The position numbers and the translations under genes were made by a program. The notes under the pieces are model-generated. The model saw only the letters and a list, made by a program, of their open reading frames with translations. It ran no database searches and was not told where the DNA came from. Of a stretch of DNA of 64,000 bases, positions 4,786-60,067 are shown in pieces (position 1 is the stretch's first letter; each line of letters starts with the position of its first letter). Source of the stretch: Microbacterium nanhaiense (GTDB lineage: Bacteria > Actinomycetota > Actinomycetes > Actinomycetales > Microbacteriaceae); assembly GCF_014646015.1 (NCBI RefSeq), contig NZ_BMMQ01000003.1, positions 372,001-436,000 of the forward strand, written 5' to 3'.

Positions 4786-4804
4786 TCGCCTGATCGCCTG
4801 CACG

Positions 4805-4834: not shown

Positions 4835-4850
4835 CGGCGACGAATCGGTG

Positions 4851-5099: not shown

Positions 5100-5319
5100 G
5101 CGGGGGCTCCTAAGCGTAGTGGTGGGGTTCGTTTTGCGGGGTTCAGCTCGGATCAAGTAAGGTCTGACTAAGCTGGATGTGAGGCGGCTGCACGCCGCGC
5201 ACCCCACCACGCTGTGGGAAACACACCGTTAATAATTGTCGTACAGGCGGTGGTCTGGATCAAGGGTTTTGGGAAATCTCCAGGAACTCTTCTTTATAAC
5301 GCCTGTGGGAAGAGACTCG

Positions 5320-5721: not shown

Positions 5722-5726
5722 CCTCC

Positions 5727-6461: not shown

Positions 6462-6500
6462 GGGGATCCACGCTATCGGGTGAATCCCCGCGGCAAACCC

Positions 6501-14200: not shown

Positions 14201-14229
14201 TTGCGGATGTCGGGATCTAAAGCTACCGT
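14201..14229 (+). promoter_or_regulatory. promoter of the xyloglucan importer operon
   Basis: TTGCGG (14201-14206), 17-base spacer, TACCGT (14224-14229). The expected transcription start falls inside the palindromic operator at 14235-14246, a classical arrangement for LacI repression. Confidence 0.58.
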
Positions 14230-14234
14230 AAATG

Positions 14235-14246
14235 CGAAGCGCTTCG
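14235..14246. promoter_or_regulatory. LacI-type operator, copy 2, perfect palindrome
   Basis: CGAAGCGCTTCG is a perfect 12-base palindrome at the predicted start site of the importer operon. A weaker relative, GGAAGCGCTCGG, lies 24 bases downstream (14259-14270). The LacI protein at 20207-21247 in the same operon is the likely binder. Confidence 0.66.
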
Positions 14247-14311
14247 ACAAAGTTGTTGGGAAGCGCTCGGGTGATGCAGCGTCGCCCGTTCGGAGACCAA
14301 AGGAGACCTCC

Positions 14312-15955: not shown

Positions 15956-15959
15956 GGCG

Positions 15960-16964
15960 ATGACCGCAACCGCGACCGAATCGCTGACGACTTCCGGCCC
16001 GGAGCGCCCGGGCCGGAAGTCGGCCGCCGCCGCGAAGGCGGCCCCGGGCCGCACGCTCAGCTTCCGCCACCGCCTGCGGCGCGACGGCGCGCTCCTGCTG
16101 ATGGTGCTGCCCGCCGTGGCGCTCCTGATCGTCTTCGCCTACGTGCCGATGCTCGGAAACGTCATCGCGTGGCTCGACTACTCGCCGTACGTGGGGATCA
16201 TCGACAGCGTCTGGGTGGGCTGGGACAACTTCGCCCGGGTCTTCCAGAACGCCACCTTCTGGCACGCCGTCGTGAACACCCTGGCGATCACGGCGTTCCA
16301 GCTGGTGTTCTACTTCCCGATCCCGATCATCCTCGCGCTGCTGCTCAACAGCGTCGCGACGCCGTGGATCCGCTCGACGATCCAGTCGATTGTCTACCTG
16401 CCCCACTTCTTCTCGTGGGTTCTCGTCGTGACGATCTTCCAGCAGATCTTCGGCGGCGCGGGGCTGCTGCACCGTGTTCTCGCAAATGCCGGCTTCGAGG
16501 GCTTCGACCTGATGACGAACCCCGATACCTTCCTCGTGCTGATCACCTCGCAGGCGGTGTGGAAGGACGCCGGCTGGGGCATCATCATCTTCCTCGCCGC
16601 GCTCGCCACCGTGAACCCGGAGCAGTACGAGGCCGCCACCATGGACGGCGCGGGCAAGTGGGGGCGCATCTGGCATGTGACGCTTCCCGCGATCCGTCCG
16701 ACGATTATCCTGCTGCTGATCCTCCGCCTCGGAGACGCCCTCACGGTCGGCTTCGAGCAGCTCATCCTGCAGAGAGACGCCGTCGGAGCCGACGCGGCGG
16801 AGGTGCTCGACACCTACGTCTACTACCAGGGCGTCATCAACGGTGACTGGGCCTTCGCGGCGGCCGCGGGCCTGGTCAAGGGAATCGTGTCGCTTCTGCT
16901 CGTGCTCGGCGCGAACAAGCTCGCACACCTGTTCGGAGAAGACGGGGTTTACCGCAAATCATGA
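15960..16964 (+). CDS. sugar ABC importer permease, LplB type
   Basis: A membrane permease of about 334 residues with six hydrophobic helices, a basic N-terminal tail and the inner-membrane EAA loop (EQYEAATMDGAGKWGRIWHVTLP), which contacts the ATPase. The LplB-type end LFGEDGVYRKS is typical. The start at 15960 avoids overlap; an ATG at 15930, preceded by AGGAG inside the binding-protein gene, is a real alternative. The next permease starts at 16961 with a four-base ATGA overlap, so translation is coupled. It forms the channel with the product of 16961-17917. Confidence 0.92.
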   Translation: MTATATESLTTSGPERPGRKSAAAAKAAPGRTLSFRHRLRRDGALLLMVLPAVALLIVFAYVPMLGNVIAWLDYSPYVGIIDSVWVGWDNFARVFQNATFWHAVVNTLAITAFQLVFYFPIPIILALLLNSVATPWIRSTIQSIVYLPHFFSWVLVVTIFQQIFGGAGLLHRVLANAGFEGFDLMTNPDTFLVLITSQAVWKDAGWGIIIFLAALATVNPEQYEAATMDGAGKWGRIWHVTLPAIRPTIILLLILRLGDALTVGFEQLILQRDAVGADAAEVLDTYVYYQGVINGDWAFAAAAGLVKGIVSLLLVLGANKLAHLFGEDGVYRKS

Positions 16965-17917
16965 GCACTCGCACGCATACAGAAAACCTGACGGTGCCGC
17001 GCCGGCGGCGCCGCCGTTCCTCGCCGCACCGACCCGCATGGGAGGGGCGTCCCACGGTTCTCGGCCAGACCGGGAAGTCCGTGGCACTCATCCTCGTGGT
17101 GCTCGCGGTGCTCTTCCCGCTGTACACGGTCCTCCTCACCTCCGTATCGTCGAACGCGACCGTGAACGCGGCGGGCGGCATGGTCGTGGTACCCGGCGAG
17201 ATCACCTTCGCGGCGTACCGGCAGATCCTCTCCGGCGGCATCGTCACCCGATCGGTCATCGTCAGCGTGATCATCACGGGGGTGGGCACCCTCATCTCCA
17301 CCGTCGTGTCGATCCTCGCCGCCTACGGGCTGTCGCGGCCGAACTCGCTGTTCCACCGCACGATCCTGTTCATCTTCCTCATCACGATGTTCTTCGGCGC
17401 CGGCATGATCCCGATGTACCTCCTCGTGAGCGGGCTGGGGCTCATCGACAGCCTCTGGGCGCTGATCCTTCCCGGAGCGGTGTCGGCGTTCAACGTGCTG
17501 ATCCTGCGCTCGTTCTTCATGGGGATCAGCCCCTCGATCACCGAGGCGGCCCGCATCGACGGGGCGGGAGACTGGCGCATCCTGTGGAAGATCGTCCTGC
17601 CCATGTCGGGCGCGGTGATCGCGGTCGTCGCGCTGTTCTACGGCGTGGGCTACTTCAACTCCTTCTTCAACGCGATGCTCTACATCAACGACAACGCGAA
17701 GTGGCCGCTGCAGCTCGTGCTGCGCTCCTACGTGCTGCAGGGCGTCACCCTCCCCGGCAGCGGCGCGGGCCAGGTCAACGTCGAGACGGGCGCCGTCACC
17801 GGCCTCCCCGTCAAGATGGCGATCATGGTGCTCGCGCTCGTGCCGATCCTCCTCGTCTATCCCTTCGTTCAACGACACTTCACCAAGGGCGTCATCTTCG
17901 GCGCCATCAAAGGCTAA
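16961..17917 (+). CDS. sugar ABC importer permease, LplC/YtcP type
   Basis: A 318-residue permease with six hydrophobic segments and the EAA loop ITEAARIDGAGDWRILWKIVLP. Typical LplC features are the extended NAMLYINDNAKWPLQLVLR segment and the end FVQRHFTKGVIFGAIKG. It overlaps the upstream permease by four bases and is followed within five bases by the alpha-xylosidase gene. With the LplB-type partner and the binding protein it makes a complete importer except for the ATPase. By context the cargo is a xyloglucan oligosaccharide. Confidence 0.93.
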   Translation: MSTRTHTENLTVPRRRRRRSSPHRPAWEGRPTVLGQTGKSVALILVVLAVLFPLYTVLLTSVSSNATVNAAGGMVVVPGEITFAAYRQILSGGIVTRSVIVSVIITGVGTLISTVVSILAAYGLSRPNSLFHRTILFIFLITMFFGAGMIPMYLLVSGLGLIDSLWALILPGAVSAFNVLILRSFFMGISPSITEAARIDGAGDWRILWKIVLPMSGAVIAVVALFYGVGYFNSFFNAMLYINDNAKWPLQLVLRSYVLQGVTLPGSGAGQVNVETGAVTGLPVKMAIMVLALVPILLVYPFVQRHFTKGVIFGAIKG

Positions 17918-42258: not shown

Positions 42259-42287
42259 ACCATAGCAGAAACCGGTTTCTGATGTAA
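42259..42287 (-). promoter_or_regulatory. promoter of the leftward M24-to-serine-hydrolase operon
   Basis: Reading leftward: TTACAT (42287-42282), exactly 17 bases, TATGGT (42264-42259). The whole spacer is the palindromic operator at 42266-42281, so repressor and polymerase cannot bind together. Confidence 0.62.
42266..42281. promoter_or_regulatory. LacI-type operator CAGAAACCGGTTTCTG
   Basis: A perfect 16-base palindrome between the divergent M24-like and GH43 operons. Its core GAAACCGGTTTC recurs at 49480-49491 exactly and at four other places with one or two changes. The LacI protein at 43819-44823 is the probable binder. Confidence 0.75.
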
Positions 42288-43818: not shown

Positions 43819-44823
43819 ATGACTGCGAAGAAGACCGGGCGCGAGATCACGATTTCCGACATCGCCGCGGCGGCGGGGGTGTCGAAGGCCACGGTGTCTC
43901 GCGTGATGAACGGCGTATCGACCGTGAACGAGCAGATCGCCGAGCGCGTGCGCGCCGCGGTCGCCGAGCTCGGATACTCGCCCAGCGCGGCCGCGCGCTC
44001 GCTGTCGCTCGGTGAGAGCCGGACCATCGGCGTCGTCGTGCCGGACCTCGCCAACCCGATGTTCCACCAGGTGCTTCACGGCCTGAATTCCGCCGCGGAG
44101 CGCGACGGCTACCGGGTGCTCGTCGCCGACACGCGCGAGCATCGCGAGCGCGAGGTGGAGATCGCGCTCGACATCCGCAACCGCACGGACGCGATCGTGC
44201 TCTTCGCGCCCCGCATGGACCGTCTGACGATGCTCGACCTCATGCCCAAGATCGATCCGGTCGTCATTTTCAACCGCACGACCGGTAAGCGCGCGGGTGC
44301 CGTCCTGATCGATTACGCCGAAGGGATCGGCGCCGTCGCGCGTCATCTCATCGAGCTGGGGCACACGAAGATCGCCTACCTCGCCGGCCCGCCGCAGGCG
44401 CGGTCGAACATGGCCCGTCAGGACGGCCTCGACATCGTCCGCGGCGAGCATCCGGAGGTCGAGATCGTCAGCGTCGACTGCGGATCGTCCTTCGAAGACG
44501 GCTACGCGGCCTGGCCCGCCGTGCGCGAGACCGGCGCGAGCGCGGCGATGGCGTTCAACGATGTCGTCGCGCTCGGATTCCTCGGTCGCCTCGCGGAGGA
44601 GGGCGTGAGCGTGCCCGACGAGCTCTCGGTCGCCGGATTCGACGACATCCCGTTCTCGCAGTACTCCTCGCCGAGCCTCACCACGATGACCGCCCGCCTG
44701 GGCGACGTCGGGGAGAAGATCTGGTCGACGCTGCTCGAGCAGATCCGCGGAACGGCCGATCTCGAACCCACGACCTTCGCGCCCCAGCTCACGGTGCGCT
44801 CCAGCACAGGGAAGAAGAAATGA
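43819..44823 (+). CDS. LacI-family repressor of the pectin-type regulon
   Basis: A 334-residue LacI protein: DNA-binding domain ISDIAAAAGVSKATVSRVMNG, hinge AAARSLSLGES, and a full ligand domain (IGVVVPDLANPMFHQVLHGL, VAGFDDIPFSQYSSPSLTT). It is the second gene of the GH43 operon, three bases after GH43, and overlaps DUF6807 by four. Because it lies inside the operon controlled by the GAAACCGGTTTC operator and five related sites surround the neighbouring genes, it is the natural local regulator of all of them. The inducer cannot be read from sequence. Confidence 0.9.
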   Translation: MTAKKTGREITISDIAAAAGVSKATVSRVMNGVSTVNEQIAERVRAAVAELGYSPSAAARSLSLGESRTIGVVVPDLANPMFHQVLHGLNSAAERDGYRVLVADTREHREREVEIALDIRNRTDAIVLFAPRMDRLTMLDLMPKIDPVVIFNRTTGKRAGAVLIDYAEGIGAVARHLIELGHTKIAYLAGPPQARSNMARQDGLDIVRGEHPEVEIVSVDCGSSFEDGYAAWPAVRETGASAAMAFNDVVALGFLGRLAEEGVSVPDELSVAGFDDIPFSQYSSPSLTTMTARLGDVGEKIWSTLLEQIRGTADLEPTTFAPQLTVRSSTGKKK

Positions 44824-48144: not shown

Positions 48145-49074
48145 TCAGCCCTTGACGGATCCGATCAGCGCGCCCTTGACGAAGAAGCGCTGCACGAACG
48201 GGTAGACGATGAGCATCGGCAGGGTCGCGACGAAGATGACCGCCATCTTGATCGACTGCGCCGGCGGCACGACATCGACCGAGGACTCGTCGGCGTTCAG
48301 CCCGCTCGCCACGATCACGATCTGGCGCAGCAGCACCTGCATCGGCCACTTGGTCGAGTCGTTGATGTAGAGGATCGCGCTCTGGTAGGTGTTCCAGTAG
48401 TAGACCGCGTAGAACAGGCCGATCGTCGCGATCGACGCGAGCGAGAGCGGCAGCACGATCCGCAGGAACACGCCGAACTCCGAGCAGCCGTCGATGCGCG
48501 CGGCCTCCTCGAGGCTCTCCGGGATGCCCTGGAAGAAGCTGCGCATGATGACGAAGTTGAAGGCGTTGATCGCGACCGGCAGGATCAGCGACCACAGCGA
48601 GTCGATGAGGCCGAAGGCGTTGACGACCATGAAGGTCGGGATCATTCCGCCGGAGAACAGCATCGTGAACACGACGAGGAAGTTGATGACGCGGCGGCCC
48701 TTGAGGTGCTTCTTCGACAGGGCGTACGCCATGAACGCCGTCAGCACGAGGCTCACGAAGGTGCCGACGATGGTGACGAAGGCCGAGACGCCCATGGCGC
48801 GAAAGATCGTCGGCGTCGAGAGGATGTACTTGTAGGCCTCGAGCGTGAACGTCTTCGGGAAGAGGATGAACGGCGTCGTCGCGATCTCACCCGGGGTCGC
48901 GAGCGAGCTCGCGAGCACATTCACGAAGGGCAGCACGCAGATCAGCGCGAAGGCCGTCAGAACGATGCCGTTGATGACGTTGAAGACGCGGCGGCCAGGC
49001 GTCATTGCGCGGCTGCCCCGTCCCTTGCCCCGGAACTTGATCGGCACGGTGGCCGGCGAGGTGGTCGTTGTCAT
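48145..49074 (-). CDS. sugar ABC importer permease, LplC/YtcP type
   Basis: A 309-residue permease with six hydrophobic helices, the EAA loop PESLEEAARIDGCSEFGVFL, the LplC-type ILYINDSTKWPMQVLLR segment and the end FVQRFFVKGALIGSVKG. The ATG at 49074 overlaps the small membrane-protein gene by four bases. Its natural partner is the LplB-type permease at 57590-58579, at the far end of the same operon about 8.5 kb upstream. It is the last gene before a strong terminator. Cargo is inferred to be a pectin-derived oligosaccharide. Confidence 0.92.
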   Translation of the reverse strand: MTTTTSPATVPIKFRGKGRGSRAMTPGRRVFNVINGIVLTAFALICVLPFVNVLASSLATPGEIATTPFILFPKTFTLEAYKYILSTPTIFRAMGVSAFVTIVGTFVSLVLTAFMAYALSKKHLKGRRVINFLVVFTMLFSGGMIPTFMVVNAFGLIDSLWSLILPVAINAFNFVIMRSFFQGIPESLEEAARIDGCSEFGVFLRIVLPLSLASIATIGLFYAVYYWNTYQSAILYINDSTKWPMQVLLRQIVIVASGLNADESSVDVVPPAQSIKMAVIFVATLPMLIVYPFVQRFFVKGALIGSVKG

Positions 49075-49493
49075 GATGTAGATCCTTGCTGCGTCGAACG
49101 GACCGCGAACAGTGCGGCCGCGAGGAAGAAGAAGAAAGCGACGGGGTACAGCACGAGCTGCGTTCCCACGAGGCAGATGAGACCGGCGCCGGCGAACCAC
49201 CATCCGGTCGAGCGTCGCTCGGGGCGGCGCGATGCGATGAACAGCCCGACGACGCACAGCGCGAGGACGATGATCAGCGAGAAGCCGAACCATGCGGCGA
49301 GCGTGCGTGCACCTTCGTACGCATCGCCCGTCGGCTGCATCCCCGCCGCCTGCATCGCCGGGAGGATCTTCTCGGTGAACTCGGCCTCGCTCGATGCGTT
49401 AACCGTGAGAGTGAATCCGCCCTGCAGCAGGCCCGCGAGAGCGAGCCCGATGCCGGAGATCCATTTCTCAGGCCGTCGAGAAACCGGTTTCAT
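49071..49493 (-). CDS. small membrane protein in the importer operon, unknown function
   Basis: A protein of about 140 residues with three or more hydrophobic helices: WISGIGLALAGLLQGGF, FSLIIVLALCVVGLFIA, and a long segment ending in LYPVAFFFFLAAALFAV, with an outer loop of about 40 residues after the first helix. It resembles DUF4064-like proteins, but I am not certain. ATG at 49493 is taken; ATG at 49502 is possible and neither has a strong ribosome site. The operator GAAACCGGTTTC overlaps the first codons (ATGAAACCGGTTTC). It lies between GH28 and the LplC permease and overlaps the latter by four bases. Confidence 0.72.
   Translation of the reverse strand: MKPVSRRPEKWISGIGLALAGLLQGGFTLTVNASSEAEFTEKILPAMQAAGMQPTGDAYEGARTLAAWFGFSLIIVLALCVVGLFIASRRPERRSTGWWFAGAGLICLVGTQLVLYPVAFFFFLAAALFAVRSTQQGSTS
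49480..49491. promoter_or_regulatory. LacI-type operator inside the operon, over a start codon
   Basis: GAAACCGGTTTC, identical to the core at 42266-42281, overlaps codons 1-5 of the small membrane-protein gene, 28 bases after GH28. It could be an internal roadblock or mark a secondary promoter for the last two genes. Confidence 0.6.
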
Positions 49494-49518: not shown

Positions 49519-50778
49519 TCAATTGCCATAGGTGGCGACCTCTGCCGTGAGATTCTCGACACCGGCGCCGCCGATGATCGCGTCGCCGACCAGACCGGAG
49601 AGGCTGACGCCCTCAATCCGCGAGTTCTTCACGAAGTCGATGTAGAAGCCGGCCGCCGCCATCTCGTCGATGCCGAACGCCATCGCGGGCACCGAGGGAA
49701 CGGGATCCTTCGCGAAACCGATCGACACGTCCGTGATCGTGATGTCTTCGAACGGCATCTCGGGAAGGCCCGAGATGAAGCCCGCGCAGGAGGACACCTC
49801 GGTCGCCGAGACGTTCGAGATGAACACGCGGCGGATGGTCGGGGTGCCGTCGTCGACGGGCAGGGGGTTGCGGTCCGAGACGCGGGGGAGCTTGCCCTCG
49901 GGGCCGCAGAAGTAGAAGGGGTTGAAGACGAAGGGAACGGCGACGTTCCGCATCACGATGTTGGAGATGCGCAGGTCTTCGACGACGCCGCCGCGCCCGC
50001 GCCGCGTCTTGAGACGCACGCCGCGGTCGGTGCCGTCGAACACGCAGTCGCTGATGACGACGCCGCGCACCCCGCCCGACATCTCGCTGCCGATCACGAC
50101 GCCGCCGTGGCCGGCGAGCATCGTGCAGCCCGTGATGACGATGTTCTCGCAGGGCGCCGGGTCGGCGTTCGACGCCTCCGTGCCGGCCTTGATGGCGATG
50201 CAGTCGTCGCCGACGTCGATGTGGCAGTCGGTGATGCGCACGTTGCGGCACGACTCGGGGTCGATGCCGTCGGTGTTCGGCGAGTCGGCCGGGTTTTTGA
50301 TCCGGACCCCGGAGACGCGGACGTCGTCGCATCGGTAGGGGTGCACGGTCCACGCGGGGGAGTTCTCGAGCACGACGTCGCGGATCGTGACGCGCGACGA
50401 GTGCCGGAAGCTGATGAGGGTGGGGCGGGCGGCCTCGAGACGTGTGCCCGTGCGGACCGCCTCCCACCAGGAGGAGCCGCCGCCGTCGATTGTGCCGAGG
50501 CCCGTGACGGAGACGCCCTCCTCGCCGTCGGCGAAGATGCACGGCTGGTGGATCCTGGCCGGTGCGCCCTCCCACGAGGCGTCGATGATGGGGTAGAGGG
50601 CGGGGTCTGGAACGAACTCGAGCCGGGCCCCGCTCTCCAGGTGAAGCTCCACGAAGGAGCGCAGGCGCAGAGCACCCGTGCGGTGTACGCCCGCGGGAAT
50701 CGTGACGACCCCGCCCCCGGCGCGTGCCGCGTCGTCGATCGCCGCCTGGATCTGGGCGGTCTCGATGGTGTAGCTCAT
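49519..50778 (-). CDS. GH28 polygalacturonase-family enzyme
   Basis: A 419-residue right-handed parallel beta-helix glycosidase. All GH28 motifs are present: NTDGID (Asn168, Asp170), GDDCIAIK (Asp191, Asp192), GHG (His224) and the RLK triad (Arg255, Lys257). It hydrolyses alpha-1,4-galacturonic bonds in homogalacturonan or rhamnogalacturonan fragments. There is no signal peptide, so it most likely trims imported oligogalacturonides from the non-reducing end. The ATG at 50778 follows AGGAGC; the frame extends upstream without secretory features. It lies 31 bases after the fourth binding protein in the operon, the main clue that the cargo is pectic. Confidence 0.93.
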   Translation of the reverse strand: MSYTIETAQIQAAIDDAARAGGGVVTIPAGVHRTGALRLRSFVELHLESGARLEFVPDPALYPIIDASWEGAPARIHQPCIFADGEEGVSVTGLGTIDGGGSSWWEAVRTGTRLEAARPTLISFRHSSRVTIRDVVLENSPAWTVHPYRCDDVRVSGVRIKNPADSPNTDGIDPESCRNVRITDCHIDVGDDCIAIKAGTEASNADPAPCENIVITGCTMLAGHGGVVIGSEMSGGVRGVVISDCVFDGTDRGVRLKTRRGRGGVVEDLRISNIVMRNVAVPFVFNPFYFCGPEGKLPRVSDRNPLPVDDGTPTIRRVFISNVSATEVSSCAGFISGLPEMPFEDITITDVSIGFAKDPVPSVPAMAFGIDEMAAAGFYIDFVKNSRIEGVSLSGLVGDAIIGGAGVENLTAEVATYGN

Positions 50779-50809: not shown

Positions 50810-52333
50810 TTAGCCGTTGGAGGCGGCGTACGCCTCGGTGTATTCGGCCTCGATCTTGCCGAGGTCACCCGCACGAAGCTTGTCGATGACCTCCTCGTAG
50901 CCGGCCATATCGATCTGGCCGACCATGTACTTGTTGTAGGCGTCCTTGGCGGCGGTCACGACCTCGCTCCAGCGGGTGTCGTAGGTGTCGGACTGGAGCG
51001 ACTGGACGGGGTTCGTGATCACGAACTCCTCCTGCTCGGCCATCTTCTCCGCGGCCTCGTTGACGTAGGGCGCGCTGCTTGGGAAGTCGACCAGGTTCTG
51101 CGTGATGCGCGACGACTGGTACGGCTGAACCTCGGCGGCCCAGACGCCCTCGTCGATCGTCTCGATCTCGCCGTTCGCACCGATGTTGTAGTGCTCGCCC
51201 TCGATGCCGTTCGTCATGATGCCGAACGCCTCTTCGGAGTTGATGTCGTTGACGAACTGCAGCACCGCGCGCAGCTCGTCCTCATCCTTCACCTCGGACT
51301 TCGGGAAGACGTACCAGCCGCCGATGCCGCCGCGCGTGTCGGACAGCGTGCGCCGCTCGACGTCGCCGTACGTCATGTCGTTGATGAGCGCCCACTCCAT
51401 CGGCGTGTCGGGGTTCGCGCTCTCGGCGAGCTGCATGAAGCCGCGCGCCTCGAACAGGCCCGTCGAGACGATTCCGCCCTTGCCCTGCGCGATGGCGTCG
51501 TACTGGTTCTGCTTCTGCACGGTGACGAACTCGTTGTTCACGGCGCCGTCCTCGTACACGCCGCGGTACCACTCCATGGCTTCCTTGAACGGATCGGTCG
51601 TGAAGCTCGCAACGACCTCGTCGTTGTCGTTCAGCTCGAAATCGCTGCCCGCGCCGAAGAATCCGGCGATGTTGCGGAAGCCGAGGTCGAAGCTCTCGAG
51701 GCGATCGATGAATCCGGTCGTGTCGTTCTGGCCGTTGCCGTCGGGATCCTGCGTGGCGAAGGCCCGAGCGACCTCGCCGAGCTCCTCGACGGTGTGCGGA
51801 ACCTCGAGCCCGAGGTTGTCGAGCCAGTCCTGGCGCACGAGGATGCCGTAGCGGGCCTTCTCCTTCACCTGGGGCATGCCGTAGAGGCGGCCCTCGATGC
51901 TGGAGTCGGTCTTGACCTGGTCGCTCAGGACCGCGGCGAGGTTGGGGTAGTCGTCGAGGTAGTCGGTGACGTCCCAGAACTGCCCGGACTTCATCGCCTG
52001 GCGGATCGTCGGCGACGTGAAGCCGAGGCTGCTGACCGTGACGATGTCGGCGAGGGTGTCCGATGCGATGGCGGCGGTGAGCTTCTCGCTTGCGTTCGCG
52101 GCGGGGACCCACTGGAAGGAGAGGTCGTAGCCCGTGAGCTCCTCGAGGGCGGTGTGCACGGGGCCGTTCGCGTCCGGGGTGGTGGGGGAGTGCAGGATCG
52201 ACATCCAGGTGATGGACTTCGATTCCTCGACGCTCGCACCGTCGTCTCCGCCGCCCGTGCCGCAACCCGTGAGGGCGAGGCCGGCGACGGCGACGGAAGC
52301 AACGCTGATTCCGAGTCGGCGGTTCAGTTTCAT
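50810..52333 (-). CDS. tandem sugar-binding lipoprotein 4 (operon order), Lpl type
   Basis: A 507-residue family 1 solute-binding protein. The signal peptide ISVASVAVAGLALTGCG ends in a lipobox cysteine. It shares long blocks with its three neighbours: RYGILVRQDWLDNLGLEVPH, DPDGNGQNDTTGFIDR, FGAGSDFELNDNDEVV, KEAMEWYRGVYEDGAV and the C-terminal AGDLGKIEAEYTEAYA. It is the most downstream of four consecutive paralogues, immediately before GH28. Differences cluster in the ligand domain, suggesting a related but distinct pectic oligosaccharide. It probably feeds the single LplB/LplC channel encoded at both ends of the operon. Confidence 0.92.
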   Translation of the reverse strand: MKLNRRLGISVASVAVAGLALTGCGTGGGDDGASVEESKSITWMSILHSPTTPDANGPVHTALEELTGYDLSFQWVPAANASEKLTAAIASDTLADIVTVSSLGFTSPTIRQAMKSGQFWDVTDYLDDYPNLAAVLSDQVKTDSSIEGRLYGMPQVKEKARYGILVRQDWLDNLGLEVPHTVEELGEVARAFATQDPDGNGQNDTTGFIDRLESFDLGFRNIAGFFGAGSDFELNDNDEVVASFTTDPFKEAMEWYRGVYEDGAVNNEFVTVQKQNQYDAIAQGKGGIVSTGLFEARGFMQLAESANPDTPMEWALINDMTYGDVERRTLSDTRGGIGGWYVFPKSEVKDEDELRAVLQFVNDINSEEAFGIMTNGIEGEHYNIGANGEIETIDEGVWAAEVQPYQSSRITQNLVDFPSSAPYVNEAAEKMAEQEEFVITNPVQSLQSDTYDTRWSEVVTAAKDAYNKYMVGQIDMAGYEEVIDKLRAGDLGKIEAEYTEAYAASNG

Positions 52334-52357
52334 GATGTTCTCTTTCTTAGGGGGAAT

Positions 52358-52380
52358 CCGAAGTCAACCGTTGACTTCGG
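52358..52380 (-). other. intercistronic hairpin across the stop of binding protein 3
   Basis: CCGAAGTCAAC (52358-52368) and its exact complement (52370-52380) around one base, spanning the TGA of the 52364-53872 gene. With no T tract it is more likely an mRNA stabiliser or attenuator than a full terminator, and could raise the level of upstream relative to downstream cistrons. Confidence 0.5.
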
Positions 52381-53872
52381 CGTATGCGGCGGTGAACTCC
52401 GCCTCGATCTTGCCGAGGTCGCCCGCGCGTTCCTTCTCGACGGCGGCCTCGTAGTCTTCCATCTCGTACTGGCCGACCATGTACTTGGTGTAGGCGTCAC
52501 CGATCGCGGTGTTGACCTCGTTCCAGCGCGCGTCGAAGGTCTCCGAGGACAGCGACTGGGCCGGGTTCGTGACGACGTACTGCTCCTGCTCGGCCATCAT
52601 CTCGTCCGACTGGTTCACGTACTTGACGTTGCTCGGGTAGATCACGAGGTCGTCGGACATGCGCGACGAGAGGAAGGGCTGAACCTCGCGGTCCCATAGG
52701 CCCTGGTCGAGGATCGTGACGGCGCCGTCCGCGTCGTACTCGAAGTGCTCGCCCTCGACGCCGTTCGTCATGATGCCGAACACCTCTTCGGAGCTCATCT
52801 TGTCGAGGAAGTCGAGGATCGTGCGGAGCTCGTCCTCGTCCTTCACCTCGGACTTCGGCATGGCGTACCAGCCGCCCACGCCGCCCGCCGTGTCGGTGAG
52901 GATCCGGCGCGGCACGTCGTCGTAGGTGATGTCGTTGATGAGCGCCCAGTCCATCGGGGTGTTCGGGTCGGCGCTCTCGGCGAGGGCCTGGAAGTTGCGC
53001 GCCTCCCAGATGCCCGTGACGACGATGCCGCCCTTGTTCTGCGCGATGGCGTCGTACTGGTTCTGCTTCTGCAGCGTCACGAACTCCTGGTTGACGGCGC
53101 CCTCGTTGTAGAGGCCGCGGTACCACTCCATCGCTTCCTTGAACGCGTCGGTCGTGAAGCTCGCGACCATCTCGTCGTTCTCGTTGAGCTCGAAGACGCT
53201 GCCCGCACCGAAGTAGCCGGAGAGGCTCCGGAGGCCCACGCCGAAGCTCTCCTGGCGGTCGACGAAGCCGGTGGTGTCGTTCTTGCCGTTGCCGTCCGGG
53301 TCTTCGTTCGTGAATGCCAGGGCGACCTCGGAGAGCTCCTCGATCGTGTGCGGCACCTCGAGGCCGAGGTTGTCGAGCCAATCCTGGCGCACGAGCACGC
53401 CGTAGCGCGCCTTGATCTTCTGCATCGGCACGCCGTAGAGCTTGCCGTCGATGCTTGCGTCGGTGCGCGTCTGCTCGTCGATCTTGGCGAGGTTCGGGTA
53501 GTCGTCGATGTAGTCCGAGATCTCCCAGAACTGCCCGTCAGACAGGGCCTTTCGGATGGGGGAGGAGGTGATGCTGTTGAGCGTGACGACGTCCGCGAGC
53601 GTGCTGGACGCGATCGCCGATGTCAGCTTCTCGCCGGAGCTGGCCGCCGGGACCCAGGTGAAGTCGATCTGGTAGCCGGTGGCCTCCTCGATGGCGGTCT
53701 CGATGGGGCCGTTCGCCTCGGGCGTCGAGGGCGTGTGGACGACCGTCATCCAGCTGATCTCTTTGGAGTCCGCAGCGCTTTCGCCGCCGCCGCCCGCGCC
53801 GCAGCCCGTGAGGGCCAGGCCGGCGATGGTGACGGAAGCAACGCTGATTCCGATCCTGCGGTTGATTTTCAT
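52364..53872 (-). CDS. tandem sugar-binding lipoprotein 3 (operon order), Lpl type
   Basis: A 502-residue paralogue of the other three binding proteins, with lipobox LALTGCG at the end of the signal peptide. Conserved blocks: MQKIKARYGVLVRQDWLDNL, DPDGNGKNDTTGFVDR, FGAGSVFELNENDEMV, KEAMEWYRGLYNEGAV, and C-terminal AGDLGKIEAEFTAAYAEVNG. It is most like the 50810-52333 protein by eye, pointing to a recent duplication of that pair. A hairpin spans its stop codon. As an outer-face lipoprotein it would deliver a pectic oligosaccharide to the shared LplB/LplC channel. Confidence 0.92.
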   Translation of the reverse strand: MKINRRIGISVASVTIAGLALTGCGAGGGGESAADSKEISWMTVVHTPSTPEANGPIETAIEEATGYQIDFTWVPAASSGEKLTSAIASSTLADVVTLNSITSSPIRKALSDGQFWEISDYIDDYPNLAKIDEQTRTDASIDGKLYGVPMQKIKARYGVLVRQDWLDNLGLEVPHTIEELSEVALAFTNEDPDGNGKNDTTGFVDRQESFGVGLRSLSGYFGAGSVFELNENDEMVASFTTDAFKEAMEWYRGLYNEGAVNQEFVTLQKQNQYDAIAQNKGGIVVTGIWEARNFQALAESADPNTPMDWALINDITYDDVPRRILTDTAGGVGGWYAMPKSEVKDEDELRTILDFLDKMSSEEVFGIMTNGVEGEHFEYDADGAVTILDQGLWDREVQPFLSSRMSDDLVIYPSNVKYVNQSDEMMAEQEQYVVTNPAQSLSSETFDARWNEVNTAIGDAYTKYMVGQYEMEDYEAAVEKERAGDLGKIEAEFTAAYAEVNG

Positions 53873-53911
53873 GGGGTGCTTTCCTCGTGCTGTGGGGAAG
53901 GGGACTGGGGG

Positions 53912-55417
53912 TCAGCCGTTGACGGCCCGGTATGCCTCGGTGTATTCGGCCTGGATCTTGCCGAGATCTCCGGCGAGCAGCTCGTCGATGGCGGCCTCGT
54001 AGCCGGCCATGTCGATCTGCCCGACGATGTACTTGTTGTACGCGTCCTGAGCGGCCTGCTCGACCTGGGTCCAGCGTGCGTCGAAGGTCTCCGACGTCAG
54101 CGGTTGAGCCACGTTCGTGATCGCGTAGTCGTCGTTCTCGGCCGTGAGCTCGGCGCCCTCGTTCACGTAGGGATCCGTGTTGGGGTAGGTCACGAGCGTG
54201 TCGGAGGGGCGCGACGACGCGAAGGGCTGCACGTCGCGCTCCCACGCGGCCTGGTCGAGCATCGTGATCACGCCGTCGGCGTCGACCTCGTAGTGCTCGC
54301 CCTCGATGCCGTTCGTCATGATCCCGTACGCCTCCTCATCGAGGAGCTTGTCGATCATGCCGAGCGCCACGCGCAGCTCGTCTTCGTTCTGGATGTTGGA
54401 CTTCGGGAAGCTGAGCCAGCCGCCGAAGCCGCCGTTCGTGTCGGTGAGGATGCGCCGCGGTACGTCCTTGTAGGTCATGTCGTTGACCATCGCCCACTCC
54501 ATCGGCGTCTCGGGGTCGACCGAGCGTGCGGTGGCGATGTAGTTGGGCACGGCGGTGAAGCCCGCCATCGCGATGCCCGCCGCGCCCTTGGCGATGCCGT
54601 CCTGCTGGTGCTGCTTCTGCAGGGTCACGAACTCCTGGTTGACCGAGCCGTCCTCGTAGAGGCCGCGGTACCACTCCATGGCTTCCTTGTATGCGTCGGT
54701 CGTGAAGCTCGCGACGACCTCGCCGTCGTCGTTCAACTCGAAGTCGGCGCCCGCCCCGAAGTATCCGGAGAGGATCCGGAACCCGATGTAGAAGCTCTCG
54801 TCGCGGTCGTACATCCCCTCGGTGTCGTCCTTGCCGTTGCCGTCCGGATCGTTGTGCGCGAACGCGTGGGCGACCTCGGTGAGCTCCTCGATCGTATGCG
54901 GCACCTCGAGCCCGAGATTGTCGAGCCAGTCCTGGCGGATGACGACGCCGTAGCGTGCCTTGGGCTTCTGGATCGGAACACCGTAGAGGTGGCCGTCGAG
55001 CATCGCGGCCTCGACGATCTGCGGGTCGATCTTCGACAGGTTCGGGAACTCGCTGAGGTACTTCTCCACGTCCCAGAACTGGCCCGAGGCGAGGGCCTTG
55101 CGGATCGACGAGGAGTCGATCTGCTGCAGCGTGACGATATCCGCCAGCTTGTCGGACGCGATCGCCGCGTTGAGCTTCTCGGAGGCGGACGCGGCGGGGA
55201 TCCACTGGAAGTCGAGCCCGACACGGGTGTGCTCCTCGAGCGCCGTCTCCACGACACCGCCGGGTTCCGGCGTCGTCGGCATGTGGAGCATCGCCATCCA
55301 GGTGAGCTCGTCGGGCGAATCGCTGTCCGCCGCCCCGCCGGCCCCGCACCCCGTGAGGGCGACGCCGGCGATGGCGAGGGAAGCGACGCTGATTCCCAGT
55401 TTGCGATTGATCCTCAT
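53912..55417 (-). CDS. tandem sugar-binding lipoprotein 2 (operon order), Lpl type
   Basis: A 501-residue paralogue with signal peptide ISVASLAIAGVALTGCG and lipobox. It keeps the family blocks (ARYGVVIRQDWLDNLGLEV, KEAMEWYRGLYEDGSV, AGDLGKIQAEYTEAYRAVNG) but differs most in the central region: FTAVPNYIATARSVDPE replaces the FEARGF/FEAKNY-like segment of its siblings, and DKLLDEEAYGIMTNGIEG has its own changes. This divergence suggests a different ligand. Gaps to its neighbours are 39 and 17 bases, so it is cotranscribed. Confidence 0.92.
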   Translation of the reverse strand: MRINRKLGISVASLAIAGVALTGCGAGGAADSDSPDELTWMAMLHMPTTPEPGGVVETALEEHTRVGLDFQWIPAASASEKLNAAIASDKLADIVTLQQIDSSSIRKALASGQFWDVEKYLSEFPNLSKIDPQIVEAAMLDGHLYGVPIQKPKARYGVVIRQDWLDNLGLEVPHTIEELTEVAHAFAHNDPDGNGKDDTEGMYDRDESFYIGFRILSGYFGAGADFELNDDGEVVASFTTDAYKEAMEWYRGLYEDGSVNQEFVTLQKQHQQDGIAKGAAGIAMAGFTAVPNYIATARSVDPETPMEWAMVNDMTYKDVPRRILTDTNGGFGGWLSFPKSNIQNEDELRVALGMIDKLLDEEAYGIMTNGIEGEHYEVDADGVITMLDQAAWERDVQPFASSRPSDTLVTYPNTDPYVNEGAELTAENDDYAITNVAQPLTSETFDARWTQVEQAAQDAYNKYIVGQIDMAGYEAAIDELLAGDLGKIQAEYTEAYRAVNG

Positions 55418-55434
55418 GATGTCCTGTCTCGTGG

Positions 55435-56937
55435 TCAGCCGTTGACCTTGGCGTACGCCTCGGTGAATTCGTCTTGGATCTTGCCGAGGTCGCCCGCGAG
55501 GAGGTCGTCGACGACCTTCTGGTAGCCGTCGATGTCGAGCTGGCCGACCATGTACTTGTTGTACGCGTCGCGTGCGCTCTTGAGCACCTCGGTCCAGCGC
55601 GAGTCATACGTGTCCGAGGTCAGCGACTGCGAGACGTCGACGATTGCATAGTCGTCGTTCTCGGCCATCTTCTCGGCGGCCTCGTCGACGTACGGCGTGC
55701 TGCTCGGGAAGGTCTTGATGGTCTCGGACATACGCGACGAAGAGTAGGGCTGCACTTCCTGCTCCCACTTCGTCTGGTCGGTGATCGCGACGGCGCCATC
55801 GGCTTCGTACTCGAAGTGCTCGCCTTCGATGCCGTTCGTCATGAGGTCGAAGGCCTCCTCGGAGAGCAGCTTGTCCAGAACTCCGAGCACGACCTTGACC
55901 TGCTCCTCGTTCTTCACGCTCGACTTCGAGATCGCGTACAGACCGCCGATGCCGCCGTTGGTGTCGGAAAGGATCCGGCGAGGCACGTCTTCGTGAGTCA
56001 TGTCATTGACGAGGGCCCATGCCATCGGCGTGTCCGGGTCGCTGCTCTGCGCCAGAGCCATGTAGTTCTTCGCCTCGAACAGGCCCGTCAAGACGATGCC
56101 GCCCTTGCCCTGAGCAATCGCGTCCTGCTGATTCTGTTTCTGGATGGTGACGAATTCCTGCGTGACGGCGCCGTCCTGGTACAGCTCGCGGTACCACTCC
56201 ATCGCCTCGATGAACGGCTCGGTCGTGAAGCTCGCGACGACCTCGTCGTTGTCGTTGACCTCGAAGACGCTTCCGGCGCCGAAGTAACCGGCGAGGCTGC
56301 GGAAGCCGAGGTCGAAGCTCTCCGAGCGGTCGAGGATGCCGGTCGTGTCGTCCTTGCCGTTGCCGTCCGGGTCTTCGTTCGTGAAGGCGCGTGCAACCTC
56401 GGCGAGTTCCTCGGTCGTGTGCGGCACCTCAAGGCCGAGGGTGTCCAACCAGTCCTGACGGATCAGAACGCCGTAGCGAGCCTTGGGCTTCTGCGCCGGG
56501 ACTCCGTAGAGGACGCCGTCGATCTTCGACGCTTCGAGGATCTGTGGGTCGATCTTCGAGAGGTTCGGGAAGTCGGCGAGGAAGGGCTCGATGTCCCAGA
56601 ACTGGCCCGACGTCAGAGCGCGACGCGACGTCGACTCGGTCAGGCTCAGCGGCACGATGTCGGCGAGGTTATCCGATGCGATCGCGGCGTTGAGCTTCTC
56701 GTCTTTCGACGCTGCCGGGATCCACTGGAAGTCGAGGCCCTTCCCCACGACGTCCTCGAGCGCCGTTTCGATCACGCCGCCCTTTTCAGGAGTGGTCGGG
56801 GTGTGCAGCAGCGCCATCCACGAGACGTTGTCCTTCGAGGCATCCCCGGCACCGCCGGAGGCGCCGCACCCCGTGAGGGCGAGGCCGGTGACGGCGAGGA
56901 CTGCGGATCCGAGGGCGAGCTTGCGGTTGAACTTCAT
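55435..56937 (-). CDS. tandem sugar-binding lipoprotein 1 (operon order), Lpl type
   Basis: A 500-residue paralogue, first of the four in transcription order. The signal peptide reads ALGSAVLAVTGLALTGCG with a lipobox cysteine. Family blocks: ARYGVLIRQDWLDTLGLEV, DPDGNGKDDTTGILDR, FGAGSVFEVNDNDEVV, AGDLGKIQDEFTEAYAKVNG. The ATG at 56937 overlaps the YesL stop by four bases; the frame is open far upstream through yesL, but only this start gives a lipoprotein. Its coupling to yesL and closeness to the LplB permease suggest it is the ancestral partner of the importer, with the other three as added specificities. Confidence 0.92.
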   Translation of the reverse strand: MKFNRKLALGSAVLAVTGLALTGCGASGGAGDASKDNVSWMALLHTPTTPEKGGVIETALEDVVGKGLDFQWIPAASKDEKLNAAIASDNLADIVPLSLTESTSRRALTSGQFWDIEPFLADFPNLSKIDPQILEASKIDGVLYGVPAQKPKARYGVLIRQDWLDTLGLEVPHTTEELAEVARAFTNEDPDGNGKDDTTGILDRSESFDLGFRSLAGYFGAGSVFEVNDNDEVVASFTTEPFIEAMEWYRELYQDGAVTQEFVTIQKQNQQDAIAQGKGGIVLTGLFEAKNYMALAQSSDPDTPMAWALVNDMTHEDVPRRILSDTNGGIGGLYAISKSSVKNEEQVKVVLGVLDKLLSEEAFDLMTNGIEGEHFEYEADGAVAITDQTKWEQEVQPYSSSRMSETIKTFPSSTPYVDEAAEKMAENDDYAIVDVSQSLTSDTYDSRWTEVLKSARDAYNKYMVGQLDIDGYQKVVDDLLAGDLGKIQDEFTEAYAKVNG

Positions 56938-57590
56938 GAGGAGATTCCTTGCGATGCCGGTGCGTGAGATGTGGTGTCGTTGATGTCGTCGTCGGCGACG
57001 AGCTGACGGAAGACGGATCGTGTGATGAGGCCGATGGCGGTCGCGGGCACGACCATGGCGAAGAGGGGAAGGATGGGGAGGGCGAAGGTGTACAGCAGCC
57101 ACACCCACCCGGCGGTCGCGGCGGCGGCGATAATCGTCCAGTGCAGCGAGCCGATCCCGACGAGGAACGCCGCGGCGAAGCGGCGGTGAATCGCGACCTG
57201 GTCGGTGGCGACCGCAATCGGGAAGACATACGCGCCCGCGACGAAGAGAAGGAAGAGCGCGACCACGTTTGCGAAGCGGAGCTCCCAGCTCGACGCCGAG
57301 AAGATGTTCGTTCCGATGATGGTGCCGGCGACGATGAGCACCCAGCCCATCGCCGCCGAGCGCCAGAACTCGGCCCGGACCTTCTGGAAGAAGGTGCGGG
57401 TGATCGGCGGCTGGTCGCCGAGGCGGAACCAGCCATCGATGTATGCCGCGAGCGCGTACGACGCGGGGCCCAGACCGAAGATGATCAGGCCGGCCAGCGT
57501 CGTCACCAGCCACAGCAGGGTGAGGTACACCATGCGGTACACGCCCGTCAGGAACGAGTTCAGCCGCATGAGTCCCTCGTAGGAGAACAT
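56934..57590 (-). CDS. yesL: YesL-like DUF624 membrane protein
   Basis: A 218-residue membrane protein with five or so hydrophobic helices: VYLTLLWLVTTLAGLIIFGLG, AAMGWVLIVAGTIIG, VVALFLLFVAGAYVF, WTIIAAAATAGWVWLLYTFA and ILPLFAMVVPATAIGLI. DUF624/YesL proteins sit in rhamnogalacturonan and related importer operons (yes and lpl regions of Bacillus subtilis) but have no assigned biochemical role. It lies between the LplB permease (one-base overlap) and the first binding protein (four-base overlap), the usual place. Its presence supports a pectic or uronic oligosaccharide as cargo. Confidence 0.86.
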   Translation of the reverse strand: MFSYEGLMRLNSFLTGVYRMVYLTLLWLVTTLAGLIIFGLGPASYALAAYIDGWFRLGDQPPITRTFFQKVRAEFWRSAAMGWVLIVAGTIIGTNIFSASSWELRFANVVALFLLFVAGAYVFPIAVATDQVAIHRRFAAAFLVGIGSLHWTIIAAAATAGWVWLLYTFALPILPLFAMVVPATAIGLITRSVFRQLVADDDINDTTSHAPASQGISS

Positions 57591-58579
57591 CAGTAGACGC
57601 CTTCCTCGCCGAACTTCTTCGCGAGCTTGTTCGCCATGATGACGAGGATCAGGCCGACCAGGCCCTTGAACAGGCCGACCGCTGCGGCGTAGCTCATCTG
57701 ACCGTTCTGGATACCCGTGACGTACACGTAGGTGTCGAAGATCTCGCCGACTTCGCGGTTGAGCGAGTTCAGCACGAGGAACATGTGCTCGAATCCGAGC
57801 TCGAGGAAGTCACCGATCGCGAGGATGAAGAGAACGATGATGGTCGGGCGGATGGCAGGGAGCGTGATGTGCCACGTCTGACGCCAGCGTCCGGCTCCGT
57901 CGAGCTCGGAGGCCTCGTAGAGTTCGGTGTCGACAGCGGTCATCGCCGCGAGGTACACGATGGTTCCCCATCCGGCGCTCTTCCAGATCTCCTGGAAGAC
58001 GTACATGGGGCGGAGCCAGGCGGGATCGGTCAGGAAGCCGATCTTCTCGAAGCCCCACGACTCGAGGAGGTTGTTGATGCTTCCGCCGTCGGTCGTGAAC
58101 AGCACGTAGAACAGCGACACCACGATGACCCACGACATGAAGTGCGGTAGGTAGATGACCGTCTGCACGGAGCGCTGGAACCACTTCGTGCGCACCTCGT
58201 TGAGCAGCAGCGCGAGGATGATCGGAATCGGGAACGAGAAGATCAGCAGCAGCAGCGACACGATGATCGTGTTGCTGAGCAGCATGAAGAACGTTTCTTC
58301 GGTGAAGAAGCGGATGAAGTGCTCGAAGCCGACCCAGTCGCTGCCGAAGAGACCGAGATAGGGCGTGAAGTCCTGGAAGGCCATGATGAGGCCGCCCATG
58401 GGGAAGTACTTGAAGACGATGAAGTACGCGATCCCGGGCAGCGCCATGAGGTACAGCGCCTTGTGGCGCCAGATGTACGATTCGCGCCAGCCCTTCTTCC
58501 TCGGCGTGACGGTCGGGGCCGCTGTCGTGAACAGGTGCTCAGTCGTCGGCTTGACCTGAGGAATGGTGGGACCGCTCAT
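57590..58579 (-). CDS. sugar ABC importer permease, LplB type
   Basis: A 329-residue permease with a cytoplasmic N-terminus, six hydrophobic helices and the EAA loop ELYEASELDGAGRWRQTWHI. The LplB-type end KLAKKFGEEGVY is present. It opens the nine-gene leftward operon and is preceded by a promoter with two GAAACCGGTTTC-like operators. Its partner LplC-type permease is the last gene of the same operon, about 8.5 kb away. No ATPase gene is in the operon, so energy must come from an ATPase encoded elsewhere. Confidence 0.93.
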   Translation of the reverse strand: MSGPTIPQVKPTTEHLFTTAAPTVTPRKKGWRESYIWRHKALYLMALPGIAYFIVFKYFPMGGLIMAFQDFTPYLGLFGSDWVGFEHFIRFFTEETFFMLLSNTIIVSLLLLIFSFPIPIILALLLNEVRTKWFQRSVQTVIYLPHFMSWVIVVSLFYVLFTTDGGSINNLLESWGFEKIGFLTDPAWLRPMYVFQEIWKSAGWGTIVYLAAMTAVDTELYEASELDGAGRWRQTWHITLPAIRPTIIVLFILAIGDFLELGFEHMFLVLNSLNREVGEIFDTYVYVTGIQNGQMSYAAAVGLFKGLVGLILVIMANKLAKKFGEEGVY

Positions 58580-58642: not shown

Positions 58643-58654
58643 GGGGACCGGTTT
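58643..58654. promoter_or_regulatory. LacI-type operator, promoter-distal copy for the importer operon
   Basis: GGGACCGGTTTC, 10 of 12 matches to GAAACCGGTTTC, centred 46 bases (about four helical turns) from the second copy at 58689-58700. It lies in the 5' untranslated region of the LplB-first operon. Confidence 0.58.
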
Positions 58655-58688
58655 CCTGGTGGCCCACGACCGTGTGGGGCACCATCGG

Positions 58689-58700
58689 GGAACCGGTTTC
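58689..58700. promoter_or_regulatory. LacI-type operator at the transcription start of the importer operon
   Basis: GGAACCGGTTTC, 11 of 12 matches to GAAACCGGTTTC. It begins four bases downstream of the predicted -10 (58705-58710), so it would cover the transcription start. Confidence 0.66.
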
Positions 58701-58750: not shown

Positions 58751-59956
58751 TTAGGAGCGGGGGATCGTCCGATCGAGTCGGGCCGCGAAATCGATCATGA
58801 ATTCGTGCCGCCACTGCGATACCGTGCGGGCGCCCGGCCAGCCCTCGATGGCGACCTCGGGCGCGCCGTCGTCGCACCACCAGTTTCGATAGGCCTGCGA
58901 GGGGATCGACCACCTCTGGGCGGGCGGAAGCTCGGCGGTGAAGGATCCGGACTGGCCGTCGAGCGCGGGGTGGGTGCTGCGGATCTCATACCCCATCGGG
59001 CGGATGTCGCGCGGTGAGAGGCGGAAGCGCAGCAACTCGCCCTCGACCACGGGCTCGGGGAAGGGGCCCTGCAGGCGCCCGTCGAAGAGGAGGTTGGCGT
59101 GGTGCTCGTCGCTCCAGTCGGCCGGCTTCGGGACGAGGATCTCGACGACGCCGAACGCCTCGACGACGTCGGCCTCGGTAGCGGGGTGCGCGAGACGGGT
59201 CTTTCGTCCGTCCCACAGCGGCACGAACTTCCCGCCCCAGCTGGGCTCGTCGGGGCGCTGGGTGCCGTGCAGCACCCAGGTGACGGTCGGCGTGTCGCCC
59301 ATCTTGACCGCGGGCAGCTGCTTCTCGAAGAACGCGCCGAGTGCGCCTCGACCGATGACGTGCTCGCCGATGAAGCGCGTCGGGGAGAGATCGTCGTCCG
59401 GAGCGCCCATGAAGAAGCCGCGATAGGTGTTGTTCGACTCGATCAGCGTCACGTCGCGGTGGTGTGTCTCGATGTAGTTGTATGCGTCGACGCCCCACGT
59501 CTTGTTGGGGCCGCCGATGTAGTGCACGACGATCTTGTCGGTGATGTCCGGCGCGTCGTGGAGCGCCTGGGCCACGTCGTCGATCCCGCCCCAAACGAGC
59601 ACGTTGAGCGGTCGCGGGTCCTCGCGCCGCGCGCACGCCACGAGCCATTCGGATCCCTCGGAGGGGTCGGAGAAGCCGGCGTCCGGTGCGACGTCGACGG
59701 CGCCCTGTTTCACGAGCGATCGAAGCGCGTCGGGCATGGGGTAGTCCGCGTGCGACGACAGTGCCGCGTAGTCGCTCTCGTAGGCGTCGATGACGGCGTG
59801 GATGTCGCGCGCCCGACCGTCGCCGTAGGGCGACGACACGAGCCCCTCGATGTCGAGCACATCCGAGTAGAGAAGCAGGTGCACCATCGACTGGAAGTCG
59901 TCGGGGTCGGTTCCACCGATGTCCGTCGAAACGAGGACGCGGGGCAGGGCGGTCAT
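58751..59956 (-). CDS. DUF1593 nucleoside-hydrolase-like protein
   Basis: A 401-residue cytoplasmic protein with the inosine-uridine nucleoside-hydrolase fold at its N-terminus: STDIGGTDPDDFQSM, the metal-binding aspartate motif, then NVLVWGGIDDVAQAL and HYIGGPNKTWG. The last 120 residues are a beta-rich domain of the DUF1593/Sde182-like family, which recurs in plant-polysaccharide loci. The activity is unknown; hydrolysis of an N- or O-glycosidic bond is plausible by fold. The ATG at 59956 has AGAGAG upstream. It is divergent from the 60144 gene, sharing an operator-bearing control region. Confidence 0.84.
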   Translation of the reverse strand: MTALPRVLVSTDIGGTDPDDFQSMVHLLLYSDVLDIEGLVSSPYGDGRARDIHAVIDAYESDYAALSSHADYPMPDALRSLVKQGAVDVAPDAGFSDPSEGSEWLVACARREDPRPLNVLVWGGIDDVAQALHDAPDITDKIVVHYIGGPNKTWGVDAYNYIETHHRDVTLIESNNTYRGFFMGAPDDDLSPTRFIGEHVIGRGALGAFFEKQLPAVKMGDTPTVTWVLHGTQRPDEPSWGGKFVPLWDGRKTRLAHPATEADVVEAFGVVEILVPKPADWSDEHHANLLFDGRLQGPFPEPVVEGELLRFRLSPRDIRPMGYEIRSTHPALDGQSGSFTAELPPAQRWSIPSQAYRNWWCDDGAPEVAIEGWPGARTVSQWRHEFMIDFAARLDRTIPRS

Positions 59957-60067
59957 GGTCAGCTCTCTTTCGTTGCTGCGCGGCGTCTTTGCCGCGCAGA
60001 TGAGTGGTGACGGGCGCTCAGGGCGGCGACTCGTCGAACCGGTTGACCAAATTAGCACCGTTCGCCG

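Follow-up and report, generated by a model that had tools for sequence, protein, structure and literature searches.

Four tandem binding-lipoprotein genes with a single LplB/LplC permease pair in Microbacterium nanhaiense: an in-place expansion with possibly differing ligand preferences

Introduction

Why should one oligosaccharide importer be accompanied by four binding proteins? The question is raised by a stretch of 64,000 nucleotides from Microbacterium nanhaiense (RefSeq assembly GCF_014646015.1, contig NZ_BMMQ01000003.1, positions 372,001 to 436,000 of the forward strand), called the window here. In it, four consecutive genes encode related lipoproteins, S1 to S4, inside a cluster with one LplB-type and one LplC-type permease gene. 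An initial annotation had explained them as an in-place expansion that widens the range of pectic oligosaccharides captured, and had called them a binding-protein array. We favour, with moderate confidence, a reading close to this: four receptors whose ligand preferences differ in part and which serve one LplB/LplC channel of the oligogalacturonide type.

The Four Receptors and Their Fold

The genes lie on the minus strand, S1 at 55435–56937 (500 residues), S2 at 53912–55417 (501 residues), S3 at 52364–53872 (502 residues) and S4 at 50810–52333 (507 residues), and the gaps between them are 17, 39 and 30 nucleotides. The open frames are intact, with no internal stops, and the number, coordinates and lengths (500–507 residues) first annotated are correct. 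The proteins are 61–67% identical in pairs (72–77% at the nucleotide level). Their four-way alignment has gaps in at most three columns, and an LTGC motif near the amino-terminus, lipobox-like when judged by eye, is invariant. With a profile made from S1–S4, the four score 986–1000 bits and the next protein of the genome 303 bits, which excludes a chance likeness. A duplication artefact of sequencing or assembly was ruled out by the nucleotide identity and by the orthologues that three of the copies have in M. sorbitolivorans.

No Pfam family was assigned by hmmscan to S1 or S4, the two proteins submitted, and none of the four matched an NCBIfam family; a six-frame search did find SBP_bac_1 (PF01547) in S3 (57 bits) and S4 (52 bits). 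An AlphaFold model of S4, made with a 66-row alignment, has a mean predicted local distance difference test score of 90.0 and a predicted template modelling score of 0.85. The nearest solved fold is that of Smon0123 (Protein Data Bank, PDB, 5gub; Z 29.0, root-mean-square deviation 4.1, 443 residues aligned), followed by further entries of the Smon0123 and AlgQ1/AlgQ2 set (PDB 5h6u and 3vlw; Z 28.2 and 27.6; AlgQ2 Z about 28). Foldseek gives 2.8e-23 for the comparison with AlgQ2 (1kwh). Blon_2347 of Bifidobacterium (Z 25.7) and YesO of Bacillus subtilis (Z 22.1) are more distant. Smon0123 is also the top hit of both sequence searches, followed in one by AlgQ1 and in the other by Bifidobacterium 6fth and then AlgQ1. 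Despite the gaps in Pfam, the modelled fold settles the family: S1–S4 are predicted to be lipoprotein binding proteins of the AlgQ/LplA fold.

Divergence at the Predicted Ligand Contacts

Ligand contacts were predicted from twelve residues of Smon0123 that are visible in part of Table 1 of PMC5717064 (articles are cited by PubMed Central number). Eleven of them were mapped onto the receptors through a profile alignment. For the remaining one, Tyr146, loop 154–158 was added by hand, and contact regions were defined as the columns within three residues of the mapped positions. In these regions S1–S4 show 2.06 differing residues per column, compared with 1.75 elsewhere (permutation p 0.004). Without the hand-added loop the column permutation gives p 0.0125, and all variants of the test on the four proteins fall between 0.004 and 0.028.

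The control consisted of quartets sampled, non-independently, from 32 rows of single-copy orthologues. Their contact regions are less variable than the rest (mean −0.16), whereas S1–S4 have a value of +0.31, which none of 1000 control quartets reaches. The trio S1, S3 and S4 is likewise matched by none of 1000 control trios (one without the hand-added loop). Among pairs, the observed value is reached per 1000 control pairs, with and without that loop, 0 and 0 times for both S3/S4 and S2/S3, 0 and 2 times for S2/S4, 1 and 0 times for S1/S2 and 3 and 2 times for S1/S3. At six other two-copy loci no clear contact excess was found, the value being reached by 40 to 362 of 500 control pairs.

The most conspicuous change is in S2, where 10 of the 29 departures from family-conserved columns fall within residues 276–296 (reached in none of 1000 shuffles); S1, S3 and S4 have no such cluster (p 0.30, 0.95 and 0.33). 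This loop aligns with Trp284 and Ser287 of Smon0123. Position 294 is Phe in S1, S4 and, without exception, the single-copy set, Thr in S2 and Trp in S3; Trp284 itself aligns with a Gly two residues ahead of it. In another predicted contact loop, position 155 is Ala in S1, Met in S3 and Gln in S4, and these residues are kept in M. sorbitolivorans. His48, Arg211 and Arg409 are identical in S1–S4 and in all 32 single-copy rows, and align with His36, Arg204 and Arg393 of Smon0123. In that protein the two arginines hold the sulfate, His36 the N-acetyl group and Ser287 the uronate (PMC5717064).

One Permease Pair, with the ATPase Elsewhere

The cluster reads, along the minus strand, lplB, DUF624, S1, S2, S3, S4, GH28, DUF4064-like and lplC, so that the two permease genes bracket it. 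Both products carry BPD_transp_1 (PF00528), as expected of an LplABC (CUT1-like) oligosaccharide importer. The LplB-type permease (57590–58579, 329 residues) matches at 5.7e-19; the LplC-type permease (48145–49074, 309 residues, start taken at MTTTT) matches at 4.5e-08 on the longer open reading frame 48145–49293. The gene between lplB and S1 (56934–57590, minus strand, 218 residues), which touches the lplB stop, was considered as a truncated LplC; its match to DUF624 (PF04854, 8.8e-20) rules this out and makes it a small membrane protein. The single LplB/LplC pair of the initial annotation thus stands, the gene touching S1 being no permease.

Six LplB-type permeases score at least 275 bits in the genome, after which the scores fall to 104 bits. 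The alternative that permease pairs elsewhere are dedicated to single copies finds no partner to work with: each of the other five lies within about 2 kb of one LplA-type binding protein of its own, detected with the S1–S4 profile, which more divergent partners could escape (C5:9842, C7:56877, C3:386603, C6:173223 and C4:105215, as contig and position). Gene order and profile scores therefore support the view that one LplB/LplC pair serves all four receptors. At this level of sequence and gene order, the locus combines a single permease pair with two or more paralogous receptors, as multi-receptor importers of the Ami and Opp kind do. A further LplABC-type system, with two permeases and one detected binding protein (584 residues), is located at 14201–17917 of the window.

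The cluster genes that were scanned include no ATPase gene. Two ATPases of the UgpC/MsmX type score above the model cut-off in the genome, at C3:42194 and C8:100431, both outside the locus. In B. subtilis one such ATPase is common to several pectin-related importers (PMC5730181), and by analogy we infer that a shared MsmX-like ATPase energises LplB/LplC here. Elsewhere in the genome, two SBP_bac_1 proteins are encoded side by side (C8:101815 and C8:103190; locus L125, C8:97000–112000, at about 4450–7366); an ATPase gene lies upstream of them, and downstream there is a permease-like match (C8:106246). Several receptor genes in a row are therefore not unique to S1–S4.

Origin of the Copies

A profile scan of a genome collection gave 426 matches, of which the best 80 represent 79 loci. 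Copies were counted at 62 named loci (L046–L106 and L111), with 17 distant loci (L107–L110 and L112–L124) set apart. Within the stretch fetched for each locus, shortened in some by a contig end, 52 have one copy, nine have two, one has three and none has four. In the genus, a close relative was found in 19 of 366 genomes, with one copy in 15, two in two, three in one and four only in this genome; at most four candidates were scored per genome (three in the search of the order), and higher counts would not show. The exact order lplB-DUF624-SBP-GH28-lplC (SBP, solute-binding protein) is found in 27 of the 40 actinobacterial loci that encode both permeases. Four others have two binding-protein genes in the same slot and one has three. 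The remaining eight lack GH28 (three), have it behind lplC (one), contain a further LplB match (two) or a second binding protein elsewhere in the cluster (two).

For the tree, 70 rows were used, of which the window supplied four and 54 loci chosen by hand the other 66; short or near-identical proteins, the distant Paenibacillus (but one), Clostridium and Butyrivibrio loci and several from Enterococcus were left aside. S1–S4, three copies of M. sorbitolivorans and two of Candidatus M. stercoravium form one clade of nine rows (support 100/90), which rules out four unrelated receptors gathered from elsewhere. Adding the single copies of M. suaedae and Microbacterium sp. G2-8 gives a group of eleven rows (100/99). 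S1, S3 and S4 each pair with one M. sorbitolivorans copy (at least 100/99); these splits are therefore older than that speciation. A burst private to this genome was rejected, since forcing its four proteins into one clade gives p 1.4e-49 in the approximately unbiased test. S2 has a long branch (0.36) and no orthologue among the tree rows. Two-copy loci outside this clade occur in Brachybacterium, Isoptericola, Krasilnikoviella, another Microbacterium (G034), Enterococcus and a metagenome-assembled Eubacterium genome; adjacent pairs were also found in four further genomes of the order.

Between this genome and M. sorbitolivorans, the ratios of nonsynonymous to synonymous substitution rates (dN/dS, NG86) are 0.24 for S1, 0.23 for S3 and 0.14 for S4, indicating that the three are maintained by purifying selection. 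S4 is the slowest-changing of them: identities are 78% for S1, 82% for S3 and 91% for S4, and 94% and 95% for LplB and LplC. Tree, synteny and the copy numbers one, two, three and four agree, and a tandem expansion in place, in one Microbacterium lineage and at the usual slot between DUF624 and GH28, is well supported by these sequence comparisons. The second copy of Candidatus M. stercoravium (L051:3183–4697) is mostly S4-like and is S3-like around 281–320 and 361–400; a runs test for an S3/S4-type fusion left by shrinkage of an array was not significant (p 0.059).

Cargo and Control of the Cluster

The GH28 gene (49519–50778, minus strand; polygalacturonase family, PF00295, 4e-47), whose product starts with MSYTIETA, has counterparts in 37 of the 40 actinobacterial loci that have the two permeases. 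The protein is probably cytoplasmic because no signal peptide is evident by eye. A related Enterococcus casseliflavus locus (L105) contains GH88, GH28, pectinesterase, GH43 and a DUF4064-like protein. This gene context points to galacturonate-containing oligosaccharides as the cargo.

Between GH28 and lplC lies a gene for a DUF4064-like small membrane protein (49071–49493, minus strand, the start at 49493 being a prediction); its match to PF13273 (6.9e-06, 26.7 bits) is under the cut-off of 32.1. Small membrane proteins of the DUF624 and, under the Pfam cut-off, DUF4064-like kinds, of unassigned role, accompany the importer in Microbacterium and in E. casseliflavus (L105, 2920–3597 and 7959–8405). 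On the other side of the cluster, and on the same strand, a Sde182 nucleoside-hydrolase-like protein is encoded at 58751–60058 (PF07632, 2.5e-51).

The pattern GAAACCGGTTYC, with at most one mismatch, is matched ten times in the window, at six positions, compared with 0.41 matches in shuffles. A LacI-type operator-like palindrome is located upstream of lplB (58689–58700; also at L046 8235 and L047 8240), and a second one 45 bp nearer to the gene (58644–58655) recurs with the same spacing in L046 (8235/8280) and was not found in L047. Upstream of lplC, the perfect palindrome GAAACCGGTTTC (49480–49491) overlaps the probable start of the DUF4064-like gene; it is also present at L046 15911 and was not found in L047. 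M. sorbitolivorans, the source of L046, therefore repeats both arrangements, the twin sites before lplB and the perfectly kept palindrome; in M. suaedae a single site precedes lplB, and lplC has none in front of it. The candidate reader of these sites is a LacI-family regulator (43819–44823, plus strand; PF00356 and PF13377). Together with a palindrome at 42268–42279, the three sites join the importer cluster to the side of the window with GH43 and LacI.

Given the palindrome ahead of it, lplC may have its own promoter. What the initial annotation had called one operon is only partly secure as such in view of this palindrome, and we prefer to speak of what is probably one co-regulated cluster. 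Between 48000 and 58800, a scan gave one promoter-like site where 0.8 are expected, at 49529–49501 near the lplC-side palindrome, and three terminator-like sites where 4.8 are expected.

Proposed Explanation and Alternatives

In the explanation that we favour, a single ancestral binding-protein gene would have been duplicated in tandem to give four lipid-anchored receptors. These would all bind acidic pectin fragments and accept different structures, perhaps told apart by chain length, an unsaturated end, methyl or acetyl groups, rhamnose or side chains. The loaded receptors would compete for the same LplB/LplC channel, powered by the MsmX-like ATPase encoded elsewhere; GH28 and its neighbours would cut the imported fragments inside the cell, and the LacI-type regulator would turn the cluster on.

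Several points weigh against this explanation. The contacts were mapped by sequence at about 20% identity, with a weak carboxy-terminal part and with Tyr146 in an insertion. Without S2 the column shuffle is no longer significant (p 0.07 to 0.38). The S1/S4 pair has no contact excess, its value being reached by 294 control pairs in 1000, or by 460 once the hand-added loop is dropped. In related species, the M. sorbitolivorans trio has a weaker excess (reached by 3 of 1000 with that loop and 25 without) and the Candidatus M. stercoravium pair has none (122 and 231 of 1000). S2 shifts between trees of half-proteins, being near the S1 type in the amino-terminal half (86/77) and outside the group, at an open fork, in the carboxy-terminal half. 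FusA, which binds neutral fructan, is also near in fold (Z 26.7); the fold therefore places the family and is by itself silent on acidic cargo. Ser287, the uronate holder of Smon0123, aligns with Glu or Ala in S1–S4, so the alignment does not show a kept uronate site; a retained site for an acidic group with changed surroundings is plausible. That every receptor docks on LplB/LplC is an assumption. From the pairwise tests, S2 and S3 would stand apart, and S1 and S4 may overlap in ligand preference. The widened ligand range first proposed is thus supported only indirectly, by a sequence proxy that exceeds the control in five of the six pairs and fails in S1/S4.

Should the copies merely raise the surface density of receptors for one shared ligand, the constancy of His48, Arg211 and Arg409, a contact difference between S1 and S4 no greater than between single-copy orthologues and the short intergenic gaps, which suggest co-expression, would all be expected. 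Such a dosage effect is unlikely, as the copies are only 61–67% identical, the residues specific to each paralogue at position 155 are kept in M. sorbitolivorans, and no control quartet matches the contact excess of the four. Relaxed constraint on redundant relics, chiefly S2, would account for the long branch of that copy and its lack of an orthologue among the tree rows. The departures in 213 family-conserved columns (24 in S1, 29 in S2, 29 in S3 and 35 in S4) also outnumber those of the majority of single-copy members, the 32 rows having 0 to 29 and being themselves used to define the columns. We judge decay to be quite improbable: all frames are intact, the departures of S2 are clustered in one loop, purifying selection acts on S1, S3 and S4, and the copy with the most departures, S4, is the one that changes least between the species. 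It is more doubtful still that at least one copy acts outside this importer as a sensor, a scavenger or the partner of another permease. A dual role has a precedent in SPH1118, which does both sensing and uptake (PMC9314435); the cluster genes that were scanned include none recognised as a sensor, and the other five LplB-type permeases each have a detected partner.

Beyond partly different preferences, at least one copy, S2 with its rebuilt predicted stacking loop 276–296 or S3 with Trp at 294, might have moved from the ancestral oligogalacturonide to a chemically different cell-wall fragment accepted by the same LplB/LplC. This is speculative and unlikely; if true, the selectivity of the importer would depend entirely on an exchangeable set of four receptors.

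Comparison with Known Systems

Our literature search found no paper on this array. The YtcQ-YtcP-YteP system of B. subtilis is likewise a pectin-related importer that combines a binding protein with two transmembrane proteins; it takes part in the use of polygalacturonan and rhamnogalacturonan I and is most probably energised by the shared MsmX (PMC5730181). It has one binding protein instead of four, and its kinship to the present importer is a lead by description, not by sequence. Smon0123 and AlgQ1/AlgQ2, the nearest solved folds and among the best sequence matches, bind acidic oligosaccharides (chondroitin and alginate, respectively), although their identity to S1–S4 is only about 20%.

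Importers with several receptors have been described. The Ami oligopeptide permease of Streptococcus pneumoniae is served by five paralogous lipoproteins, about 52–60% identical; these bind peptides, belong to the SBP_bac_5 family and have locus tags far apart, unlike the four tandem genes here (PMC11192437). In the Opp system of Borrelia burgdorferi, receptors were also multiplied by gene duplication and are predicted to have distinct ranges, but for peptides, with independently regulated receptors on chromosome and plasmids and with two permeases (PMC5736914). An oligosaccharide example is the cello-oligosaccharide transporter of Anaerocellum bescii, in which one ABC (ATP-binding cassette) transporter has two binding proteins, Athe_0597 and Athe_0598, differing in chain-length preference; the receptors are two and the ligands cellulose fragments (PMC12838199). 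With these precedents the idea of a binding-protein array is not new; the present one enlarges a known kind and is large for an oligosaccharide importer. What is unusual is that a single LplB/LplC pair has four receptors in tandem and that sister species show intermediate stages. Copy numbers of one to four in the same syntenic slot of close relatives form a natural series on how a sugar importer gains cargo, in which receptors change while the permease stays nearly fixed (LplB 94% and LplC 95%, compared with 78% for S1 and 82% for S3, though 91% for S4). With such an array it becomes testable to what extent a permease relies on its receptors.

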